Source: Halomonas meridiana (GTDB lineage: Bacteria > Pseudomonadota > Gammaproteobacteria > Pseudomonadales > Halomonadaceae). From it: a stretch of 64,000 nucleotides of DNA. Shown here in pieces: positions 23,657-26,813 of the stretch (positions within the stretch are counted from its first letter, which is position 1; every line of letters begins with the position of its first letter). The position numbers and the translations under genes are program-made. The notes beneath the pieces are model-generated. The model had not been told where the DNA came from. It did no database searches and saw only the letters and a program-made list of their open reading frames with translations. Location: positions 2,356,001 through 2,420,000 of the forward strand of contig NZ_CP024621.1 in NCBI RefSeq assembly GCF_009846525.1. Reading direction: 5' to 3'.

Positions 23657-24415
23657 GTGGCAGCATCAACCTCTGCAGATTCCGCACCTGTCAAAACGCT
23701 CTACGCCCATCACCTAGCGAAGAGCTACAAACGCCGTCGGGTCGTGAAAGATATCAACCTGGAAATCGCTCAGGGTAGCGTCGTCGGCCTGCTGGGGCCC
23801 AACGGGGCGGGTAAAACCACGTCGTTTTACATGATCGTTGGACTGGTCAAATCCGATGCCGGTAGCGTCGGTATCGACGACGTCGACCTGACTCATGCGC
23901 CCATGCATGAGCGCGCCATGGCCGGGATTGGCTACCTTCCCCAGGAAGCCTCCATTTTCCGCAAGCTCTCGGTGGCCGATAACATCATGGCGATTCTCGA
24001 GACGCGCAAAGCGCTGGACCGCAGCGCTCGGGAAGCACGCCTCGAGTCACTGCTCGAAGATTTCCATATTACCCACATTCGCGACAACCTGGGCATGAGC
24101 CTCTCAGGGGGCGAGCGCCGCCGAGTGGAGATCGCTCGCTCACTCGCTACCGAGCCCGCATTCATTCTGCTCGACGAGCCGTTTGCCGGGGTCGACCCTA
24201 TTTCAGTGGGTGAAATCAAAACCATCATCCGCGCACTGAAAAAACGCCACATCGGCGTCTTGATCACTGACCATAACGTGCGCGAAACCCTGGATATTTG
24301 TGACATTGCCTACATCGTTGGCGACGGCCATATCATCGCCAGTGGAAACGCCCAGGAGATTCTCAATAACCAGAAGGTTCGTGATGTCTATCTAGGCGCA
24401 GACTTCCGCCTCTAA
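23657..24415 (+). CDS. lptB: LPS export ABC transporter ATPase LptB
   Basis: LptB is the ATPase dimer that drives LPS extraction from the inner membrane. The 252-residue sequence carries Walker [10 protein letters not shown] (residues 47-55), signature [16 protein letters not shown], Walker [14 protein letters not shown] and switch [10 protein letters not shown]. It starts with GTG, with AGGGAGCGG upstream. The sequence is highly conserved and the assignment is firm. It ends the kdsD-kdsC-lptCAB run; rpoN follows after 111 bases. Confidence 0.97.
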
Positions 24416-24444
24416 ACACTGGACTGACCAAACTTTTCTTTTAG

Positions 24445-24460
24445 TGGCATGCTTATTGCA
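24445..24460 (+). promoter_or_regulatory. Candidate sigma-54 (-24/-12) promoter of rpoN
   Basis: TGGCATGCTTATTGCA matches the sigma-54 consensus TGGCACG-N4-TTGCW with one mismatch, and the invariant GG and GC are separated by exactly 10 bases. The predicted transcription start is near 24471, about 55 bases before the rpoN start codon. It lies in the lptB-rpoN gap, where an rpoN promoter would be expected. Confidence 0.5.
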
Positions 24461-24526
24461 CTTGCACAGAGCCATAACTCGCTCTAGGGTGGAGCTTTCT
24501 GATTAACGAGTGGTTCTCAGATGGTC

Positions 24527-25936
24527 ATGAAAGCTTCTCTCCAATTGCGTATCGGCACACAGCTGACCATGACACCTCAGCTGCAGCAGGCCATTGCCCT
24601 GCTACAGCTCTCCACGCTGGACCTCCGTCAAGAAATTCAGCAAGCGCTGGACGCTAACCCCATGCTCGAACAAGAGGATGAGTTTGGCGAACAGGCTGTT
24701 AGCGAGCCTCAAGAGGCCGAGTGGTCGGACAGCATTCCCAACGAACTCTCCGTAGACAGCGACTGGTCGGACACCTACCAAGACATGGGTAGCTTGGGCG
24801 GTAGCAGCGAAGGACCCGACTTCGAGCGCCAAGCCGCAGGCCAAAGCCTTCATGGCCATCTGTTATGGCAATTGGCCATGACCGACTTCTCTCCCCGCGA
24901 CTATGCCATTGCCGAAAGCCTGATCGATGCACTGGATGCCAACGGCTATCTCACTCAACCGCTCAACGACATCCGCGAAGGCCTCAAGGCGCAAGGCCAC
25001 GACAGCCTGAGCCAGCGTGAAGTAGAAAACACCCTGTTGCGCTTACAACAGTTCGAGCCCACCGGCGTGTTTGCCCGTGACCTGCGCGAGTGCCTAATGC
25101 TTCAGCTGGCCGCGCTGCCTGAAGACACCCCGCTACTGATGCCCGCAAAACGCTTGGTGCGTCAGTTTCTCGAAGCCTTGGGCAAAGACGATTTACGGCT
25201 ACTCAAGCGCCGCCTGAGCCTGGATGACGAGCAGTTGGACGACGTCATCCGTTTAATTCGCAGCCTTGACCCACGCCCAGGCAGCGCCTACGGCGTGACC
25301 GACGACAGCTATATCACGCCCGATTTGGTCGTGCGCCATGACAACGAGGGCTGGCACTTAGAGCTCAACCCGGAGGCGCTGCCGCGCCTGCGTATCCAGC
25401 CCGATTACGCCAGTTTGATCAAACGTGCCGACAAGAGCCAAGACAACCAGTTCTTGAAAGAGCACCTCCAAGAAGCTCGCTGGCTGATCAAAAGCCTTTC
25501 CAGCCGTAATGACACGCTTCTGCGAGTAGGTCGTGAAATCATCGCCCGCCAGATCGGCTTTCTAGAGCACGGCGAAGAGGCCATGAAACCGCTGATCCTG
25601 GCCGACATCGCCGAGGCCGTGGAGATGCACGAGTCCACGATCTCCCGCGTGACGACGCAGAAATTCATACATACGCCACGAGGCGTGTTCGAGTTGAAGT
25701 ACTTCTTCTCGAGCCAAGTCAGCGGCCACGATGGCGGCGATAGCCACTCCAGCACCGCCATCCGTGCACGGATCAAAAAACTGATACAAGAGGAGCCGTC
25801 GGGTAAACCGCTCTCCGATAGTCGCCTGGTGACCCTCCTTGAGGAGGGAGGCATCAGCGTTGCCCGGCGTACGGTGGCGAAATATCGCGAGTCGATGGGT
25901 ATTCCCTCGTCCAGTGAGCGCCGCCGTTTACGCTAG
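24527..25936 (+). CDS. rpoN: RNA polymerase sigma-54 factor RpoN
   Basis: RpoN directs polymerase to -24/-12 promoters that need an AAA+ activator. The 469-residue protein has the Gln-rich activator region (LQLRIGTQLTMTPQLQQAI at the N-terminus), an acidic region II (about 50-110), the core-binding domain and the HTH. The C-terminal RpoN box reads ARRTVAKYRE. I chose the second of two ATGs six bases apart because the protein then begins like E. coli RpoN. It is followed by hpf, ptsN, rapZ and npr, the standard rpoN cluster. Confidence 0.97.
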   Translation: MKASLQLRIGTQLTMTPQLQQAIALLQLSTLDLRQEIQQALDANPMLEQEDEFGEQAVSEPQEAEWSDSIPNELSVDSDWSDTYQDMGSLGGSSEGPDFERQAAGQSLHGHLLWQLAMTDFSPRDYAIAESLIDALDANGYLTQPLNDIREGLKAQGHDSLSQREVENTLLRLQQFEPTGVFARDLRECLMLQLAALPEDTPLLMPAKRLVRQFLEALGKDDLRLLKRRLSLDDEQLDDVIRLIRSLDPRPGSAYGVTDDSYITPDLVVRHDNEGWHLELNPEALPRLRIQPDYASLIKRADKSQDNQFLKEHLQEARWLIKSLSSRNDTLLRVGREIIARQIGFLEHGEEAMKPLILADIAEAVEMHESTISRVTTQKFIHTPRGVFELKYFFSSQVSGHDGGDSHSSTAIRARIKKLIQEEPSGKPLSDSRLVTLLEEGGISVARRTVAKYRESMGIPSSSERRRLR

Positions 25937-26033: not shown

Positions 26034-26342
26034 ATGCAAGTAAACATCACTGGTCATCACGTTGAACTGACTGACGCCTTGCGTGACTACGTTAACGAAA
26101 AGCTGGAACGCGTCGAACGCCACTACGACAACATCACCACGGTGCAAGTGACCTTATCTGTCGAGAAGGAACGCCAGCAGGCAGCCTGTACGCTGCATGC
26201 CGCCGGTGCCGACCTTCATGCCGAAGCCCTCGATAACGACATGTATGCCGCTATCGATGCGCTCGCAGACAAAATCGATCGTCAACTCGTTAAACACAAG
26301 GAAAAAGCACAAGCTCGCGCCCAGGGCGCAGGCGTGCGTTAA
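26034..26342 (+). CDS. hpf: Ribosome hibernation-promoting factor, short form
   Basis: HPF binds the decoding region of the 30S subunit and helps form inactive 100S ribosomes in stationary phase. The 102-residue protein is the short form: QVNITGHHVELTDALRDYV at the N-terminus, LERVERHYDNITTVQVTLSVEKERQ, then DMYAAIDALADKIDRQLVKHKEK near the end. There is no C-terminal dimerisation domain of the long HPF. GGATAAGGAGCACG precedes the ATG. It sits between rpoN and ptsN, as in E. coli. Confidence 0.96.
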   Translation: MQVNITGHHVELTDALRDYVNEKLERVERHYDNITTVQVTLSVEKERQQAACTLHAAGADLHAEALDNDMYAAIDALADKIDRQLVKHKEKAQARAQGAGVR

Positions 26343-26346
26343 CTCA

Positions 26347-26813
26347 ATGACGTTGGAAACCATCCTCCCCCGGAGCGCGTACTCTACGACGTGCCCGGGG
26401 GCAGCAAAAAACGGGTGCTGGAGTTTTTCAGCACCTTCATCGCCCAAAACACACCCAGCCTCGATAGCCAAGAAGTGTTTAGCCGCCTGATTGGACGCGA
26501 GCGTCTCGGCAGCACGGGAATTGGCAACGGCGTTGCCATCCCCCACGCACGTAGCCCGCACTGTAGCTCGCCCATCGCTGGCTTTTTGAAACTTGCCGAG
26601 CCGGTCGATTTCGATGCCATCGATGGCGACCCAGTCGATCTAGTGTTCGTGTTGCTCGTACCCGAAGAGGCGGACGACACGCATCTCGCTCTGCTTGGGC
26701 AAGTCGCGACGATCATGAACGATGCGAATACCCGTCAACAGTTACGCAAAGCCAGCAGTCAAAAAGAGTTATTGACCCTGATGACGGCCAAGATACGCGA
26801 ACAGGCCGCGTAA
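26347..26813 (+). CDS. ptsN: Nitrogen PTS EIIA protein PtsN, with an apparent 5' frameshift
   Basis: PtsN receives phosphate from NPr in the nitrogen-related PTS and regulates potassium transport and other functions. The conserved body, from VPGGSKKRVLEFF on, contains the phospho-accepting His in GNGVAIPHARS. The natural start is the ATG at 26347, giving MTLETILP, but this frame leaves the PtsN frame at a run of five Cs at 26367-26371; one extra C restores PPERVLYDVPGGSKK and a 155-residue protein. In the PtsN frame there is no start codon between the hpf stop and a GTG at 26391, which would give only 140 residues. I suspect sequence error more than a broken gene. Confidence 0.88.

Follow-up and report, generated by a model that had tools for sequence, protein, structure and literature searches.

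A conserved sigma-54-type element overlapping a predicted sigma-70-type promoter upstream of Halomonas rpoN suggests that sigma-54 may limit its own production

Comparison of the DNA upstream of rpoN, the gene for sigma-54, in Halomonas and its relatives suggests that sigma-54 probably limits its own production. The gap before rpoN carries a -24/-12 element that, judged by its conservation, is a true sigma-54 site kept by selection and not a chance match, and this element lies against a predicted sigma-70-type promoter, whose occlusion by sigma-54 holoenzyme would provide negative autoregulation. Autoregulation of some kind at Halomonas rpoN is likely.

The stretch of DNA analyzed (64 kb in all, here called the window) lies within a 3.86-Mb chromosome assembled as a single contig, and its closest named relatives in our search were Vreelandella (Halomonas) species. 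The + strand carries kdsD, kdsC, lptC, lptA, lptB, rpoN, hpf, ptsN, rapZ and npr, in that order; lptB, rpoN, hpf and ptsN were checked with NCBIfam profiles, and the other cluster genes were identified by eye and from their matching order in E. coli. Between lptB (23657-24415, its stop codon ending at 24415; TIGR04406, 395 bits) and rpoN (24521-25936; NF004595, 634.5 bits, and TIGR02395, 483.1 bits) the open reading frames and the sequence define an intergenic gap of 105 bases (24416-24520, + strand), which holds the control elements. Downstream, in the same cluster and on the same strand, are hpf (26034-26342; TIGR00741) and ptsN (26391-26813, start codon uncertain; TIGR01419, 133.8 bits, slightly below the cut-off of 138.7). 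rpoN is single-copy, with one match in the window's own genome, the one within the lptB cluster. Its start is either ATG 24521 or ATG 24527, two in-frame codons that stand two codons apart (ATGGTCATG); the second corresponds to the start motif of most other families, and the ATG-N3-ATG pair is kept in the named Halomonadaceae loci.

The initial annotation had pointed to 24445-24460 as a -24/-12 match with one mismatch and GG-N10-GC spacing, in the gap before rpoN, and the sequence reads so: TGGCATGCTTATTGCA, in the lptB-rpoN gap and on the correct (+) strand, has GG at 24446-24447 and GC at 24458-24459, with one mismatch to TGGCAC-N5-TTGCW and none to TGGCAY-N5-TTGCW. It also has C at -12, a feature of the sigma-54-repressed class I/II promoters. 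On geometry, a sigma-54 transcript would start at about 24471 (+ strand), some 12 bases past the -12 C. No other mismatch-free match to TGGCAY-N5-TTGCW occurs within the 64 kb. This lone match carries little weight by itself, because 8 matches with up to one mismatch were observed in the window against 5.3 expected, and because the perfect core TGGCAY-N5-TTGC occurs 32 times in the window's own genome against 17 for the reversed pattern. When 30 of these 32 sites were read, 24 were within long open reading frames and six, among them the rpoN site, were outside.

The case for the element is made by its conservation. The family set (the window and loci L002-L137, 137 rows) gave 118 distinct Halomonadaceae upstream regions of 200 bp, of which 108 match the element perfectly and 113 with one mismatch or none. 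Dinucleotide shuffles of the same regions gave means of 0.10 and 0.83 (maximum 5), respectively, the reversed pattern gave none of either kind, and the minus strand gave no perfect match and one with a mismatch. We discounted two regions (L094 and L110), in which the matched TTGC is the -35 hexamer itself, leaving 111/118, and checked three further loci separately from this set: L138 and L139 have perfect elements and L140 has none. In relatives, loss of the GG and GC would have spoken against the site according to the initial annotation; we found them kept, and the family as a whole has the element in 113 of its 121 regions, spread over 22 of 24 genera (g5 and g24 are the exceptions). GG and GC, four of the nine core positions, were demanded by the scan, with one mismatch in all allowed at the other five, so that the constancy of GC in these figures proves nothing about the C at -12 in relatives. 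In the most diverged group of regions (23, defined by the 24-26 spacing described below), conservation is limited to the core of the element, with a mean of 1.97 bits over its nine positions against 0.85 for the N5 and 0.33 and 0.35 for the flanks; the other two spacing groups have cores of 2.00 and 1.99 bits and flanks of 0.68-0.90 and 0.75-1.29. The element is thus conserved where its flanks are not, and far above the shuffles, which excludes chance.

Immediately downstream of the element is a pair of hexamers, the -35-like TTGCAC (24462-24467) and the -10-like TAGGGT (24485-24490), both on the + strand, that follows the family-wide pattern TTGCA[ACT]-N17-TAnnGT and from which a transcript would start, again on geometry, at about 24497 (+ strand; some 7 bases past the -10). 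In a first pass the spacer was 17 in 90 of the 96 Halomonadaceae regions with the pattern. Compared with the E. coli consensus the predicted promoter is weak (three of six positions agree in each hexamer, by hand count) and a generic promoter scan did not report TTGCAC-N17-TAGGGT, so the sigma-70 label rests on conservation and spacing. The -35 hexamer begins two bases past the end of the sigma-54 element in the window, and the sequence of the element therefore overlaps the footprint that the predicted promoter would have. The initial annotation had read the element as rpoN's own promoter. Against that reading, a conserved sigma-70-like promoter is predicted within the same footprint, and the pair (TTGC-N17/18-TAnnGT) is retained in six of the seven regions without a separate sigma-54 element, which indicates that a region can have its promoter without the element.

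The distance between the two sites varies within the family. Measured start to start with a lenient pattern, the distances from the -12 TTGC to the -35 TTGC fall into three classes, 6-7 bases (55 regions), 12-16 bases (33 regions) and 24-26 bases (23 regions), and in this last group the element overlaps the -35 only marginally. At least 12 changes of spacing class or losses are needed on the RpoN tree, which was built by a quick method, has many weak forks and excludes L071 (incomplete sequence). Distances of 8-11 and 17-23 are absent, as helical phasing might produce, a pattern that is suggestive only, because of the spread within 12-16 and the 12 tree changes. Four divergent genomes of a single genus (L116, L119, L124 and L127), which group together as one clade on the tree, have no sigma-54 element and keep the sigma-70-type pair, and represent a natural knockout of the element.

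In 49 of the 118 regions there is a second copy of the element, exactly 18 bp upstream of the first; all 49 pairs, at up to two mismatches, have this distance. The two copies differ in the base that follows TTGC: of 111 proximal copies, 109 have A or T there, and of 49 upstream copies, 48 have G or C. Melting begins at this position, -11, and the identity of the base suggests that the upstream copy may bind without initiating. The tandem arrangement needs 10 changes on the RpoN tree and is absent from the window's close relatives. Among the upstream copies the base after TTGC needs only five changes, and inheritance therefore explains part of the difference between proximal and upstream copies.

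Counterparts were also found beyond the Halomonadaceae. Other Pseudomonadales have the element in 23 of 59 regions (script set 22/56 with up to one mismatch, shuffle mean 0.27; by hand 1/3), although L164, L170 and L176 among these matches lie 50 bases or less from the ATG and may be spurious, and other gammaproteobacterial families have it in 14 of 78 (script set 13/62, shuffle mean 0.13; by hand 1/16). The class set holds one genome per family and the order set several genomes for some families. Starts were assigned by script for 56 of 60 order-set loci and by hand for three, with L195 too short to judge, and by script for 62 of 79 class-set loci and by hand for 16, with L307 too short; the shuffle controls span the 118, 56 and 62 script-set regions only, and in the same regions the minus strand gave one, two and five matches for family, order and class, respectively. 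The four loci of family f21, which are probably Pseudomonadaceae, all have AGGCATATAATTTGCT upstream of rpoN. E. coli K-12 has no element in the 47-base gap before its rpoN, which makes a 'constitutive' rpoN an enteric picture.

These more distant matches also stand close to -10-like hexamers, in other arrangements. At the class level, TAnnnT begins 17 bases after the start of the element in 8 of 13 matches, which 0 of 1000 shuffles reach. At the order level the distance is 34 bases in 6 of 22 matches, which 1 of 1000 shuffles reaches. In the 34-base layout the -12 TTGC doubles as the -35 hexamer, for example in TTGCAT-N17-TACACT. What recurs across families is the overlap and not one geometry. 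As individual cases, L145, L165, L167 and L194 have a -12 TTGC that is the -35 of a TTGC-N17-TACACT promoter upstream of rpoN. Within 200 bp upstream of rpoN in L231-L309, many gammaproteobacterial families show TTGCG-n-TAnnnT, a -12-like TTGC directly before a -10-like hexamer, and in some regions the junction is kept where a good GG at -24 is missing.

How could such an arrangement control rpoN? In the mechanism that we favour, rpoN would be transcribed from the sigma-70-type promoter (TTGCAC-N17-TAGGGT, 24462-24490) and the -24/-12 element would be bound by the sigma-54 holoenzyme, which, when no activator acts on it, would sit as an inactive closed complex over the -35 region. This complex would exclude the sigma-70 polymerase, such that a rise in free sigma-54 would lower rpoN transcription, and rpoN would be released when other sigma-54 promoters draw the holoenzyme off. 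We favour repression over self-activation because a predicted, conserved promoter overlaps the element in several layouts, because this promoter outlives the element, and because no activator site was seen. Counting against repression, the proximal element is close to consensus, including the A or T after TTGC, as it would be in a working promoter. In H. bluephagenesis, rpoN and glnA rise together upon deletion of ilvA, as described in the part of PMC13101641 that concerns it, a result that fits activation as well as release. Of the sigma-54 autoregulation that the initial annotation proposed, autoregulation as such is likely, whereas its self-activating form gives way to repression as the better reading.

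The initial annotation had also suggested looking for an activator site upstream of the element, and none that is conserved was found by synonymous conservation or an NtrC-like scan, both of them weak tests. Only 29 bases separate lptB from the element, and any activator site would therefore lie inside lptB. Fourfold sites of lptB in 47 regions held 0.31-0.71 bits in the bins concerned, with a mean of 0.49, and formed no block that stood out clearly, synonymous conservation near its 3' end was not raised, and the scan for sites resembling an NtrC consensus did no better than mononucleotide shuffles, which scored slightly higher. This result is weak evidence against an activator, because such sites can be distant or poorly conserved. 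Other kinds of control element were also considered in the region and rejected: 24300-24700 gave no Rfam match up to E = 1, and a terminator-like hairpin at 24481-24495 (GCTCTAGGG in the window) is not conserved, since most of the relatives compared have GCACTAGGG, which breaks the stem.

Under positive autoregulation, the element would act as a functional sigma-54 promoter for rpoN that an enhancer-binding protein turns on, for example in nitrogen limitation, so that sigma-54 is raised when needed. The near-perfect proximal element with its A or T after TTGC (109/111), the co-induction of rpoN and glnA in the H. bluephagenesis ilvA deletion (part of PMC13101641) and the passages of PMC12316311 that take such sites as autoregulated promoters all agree with it. 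We nevertheless consider it unlikely, given the 29 bases that leave room for an activator only inside lptB, where no raised fourfold-site block is clear, the NtrC-like scan that shuffles matched, and the other promoter kept where the element is lost; it also leaves the recurring sigma-70-type overlap unexplained. A dual promoter would reconcile the two signs: the sigma-70-type promoter would give a basal supply, idle holoenzyme would repress it, and under stress an activator would convert the bound holoenzyme into a start, making the sign depend on conditions. Both promoter types are indeed conserved side by side, and a closed complex, once bound, inherently blocks the DNA that it covers and could also start transcription there, but neither the synonymous conservation nor the NtrC-like scan detected an activator and the model is harder to falsify than either simple reading, and we give it less chance still than pure activation.

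The two remaining explanations do without sigma-54 control. The repeated box could be an operator for some other DNA-binding protein, its likeness to the sigma-54 consensus being a coincidence. This would suit the upstream copy, which departs from the sigma-54 consensus in its variable first base and its final G or C, and in some regions resembles an inverted repeat (for example TGGCATATTTATTGCCA in L060). Yet conservation falls on just the positions that define -24/-12 elements and leaves the N5 free to vary, strand and spacing are fixed, and RpoN binds the counterpart locus of P. aeruginosa (PMC8855297, in the passage that reports it, although the peak could not be placed relative to the element), making such an operator highly improbable. 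A chance resemblance without function could draw on the one-mismatch matches expected in 64 kb (5.3) and on the 24 of 30 perfect-core sites of the genome that fall within long open reading frames, and is in effect refuted by conservation: 108 of 118 regions are perfect against a shuffle mean of 0.10 and none for the reversed pattern, and the flanks do not share this conservation. We give it practically no credence.

Negative autoregulation by promoter occlusion thus remains our preferred reading for Halomonas, and it could be part of something wider. More tentatively, it is possible that many non-enteric Gammaproteobacteria restrain rpoN through a sigma-54 site fused with the sigma-70 promoter of the gene in any overlapping geometry (within the spacer, with one TTGC acting as both -12 and -35, or at 6, about 15 or about 25 bases ahead of the -35). 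The Halomonadaceae would then have a two-site version of this device, in which the upstream copy, exactly 18 bp away and with G or C following its TTGC, only binds, the proximal copy is competent to initiate, and idle holoenzyme stored at the rpoN promoter meters its own supply.

A 1994 study of P. putida rpoN reportedly found the sign of its autoregulation to be negative. That study is cited for self-regulation of rpoN in a passage of PMC8855297, which also describes RpoN binding upstream of rpoN in P. aeruginosa by ChIP-seq. Pseudomonas resembles what is proposed for Halomonas in having RpoN bound ahead of its own gene, with self-regulation claimed for it, and the four f21 loci, probably Pseudomonadaceae, have AGGCATATAATTTGCT there. 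The element in those loci is single, its surroundings are different, and none of the four has the 18-bp tandem copy. According to sections of PMC12316311, the genes that have a predicted sigma-54 promoter are enriched for rpoN in several classes, gammaproteobacteria included, 'implying autoregulation'; unlike our analysis, these passages give no promoter anatomy, tandem copies, sigma-70-type overlap or sign. The view of the initial annotation that self-control of rpoN is unusual in gammaproteobacteria does not agree with these passages of PMC8855297 and PMC12316311, which report it there, and because the Pseudomonas binding and this enrichment have been reported in them, a sigma-54 site at a gammaproteobacterial rpoN is not new.

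Occlusion of this kind has precedents. Sections of PMC4551910 describe repression of overlapping sigma-70 promoters by the sigma-54 holoenzyme in vitro at four E. coli promoters, and the class I/II promoters defined there share the C at -12 with the window's element; they have a -24/-12 site within the footprint of a sigma-70 promoter, an arrangement that at Halomonas rpoN is predicted. rpoN is not among the promoters named in the section, and E. coli rpoN lacks the element; in Halomonas the repressed gene would encode the sigma factor itself. E. coli RNA-seq is described as consistent with competition at intergenic sites (passages of PMC4591121), and repression and acceleration of the search are given as possible roles of extra sigma-54 sites (excerpts of PMC3844500). 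Sigma-54 control of rpoN genes is also found in R. etli, whose rpoN1 is described as negatively autoregulated (in a passage of PMC3916325), and R. solanacearum, for whose rpoN2 TGGCACAGCCTTTGCA is listed at 63 bases (PMC4371752). These two species have two rpoN copies, in contrast to the single copy, in the lptB cluster, of the window's genome.

In a literature search with subscription papers mostly outside its scope, we did not find tandem sigma-54 sites at rpoN, the overlap geometries or rpoN autoregulation in Halomonas, and the passages of PMC7657599, PMC8657755, PMC8743547, PMC3162934, PMC10621929, PMC9049629 and PMC3616915 gave nothing on rpoN autoregulation. The layout seen in the relatives of Halomonas, often with two sites 18 bases apart, therefore appears to be new. 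Cellular levels of sigma-54 are commonly taken to be constant, and all control is assigned to the activators. If the conserved site at rpoN does bind sigma-54, feedback would govern the amount of sigma-54 in many relatives and in Halomonas itself, which is used industrially to produce polyesters, and this feedback would affect nitrogen control, motility and engineered sigma-54 circuits. The recurrence of the overlap in different geometries leads to one general prediction, that the rpoN transcript goes up without sigma-54, and the tandem copies, always 18 bp apart and unlike each other at -11, offer a natural test of the role of that base. Finally, among the gammaproteobacterial genomes, G454 carries two full-length rpoN-like genes on separate contigs (C1:40021-41457 and C37:109392-110792).
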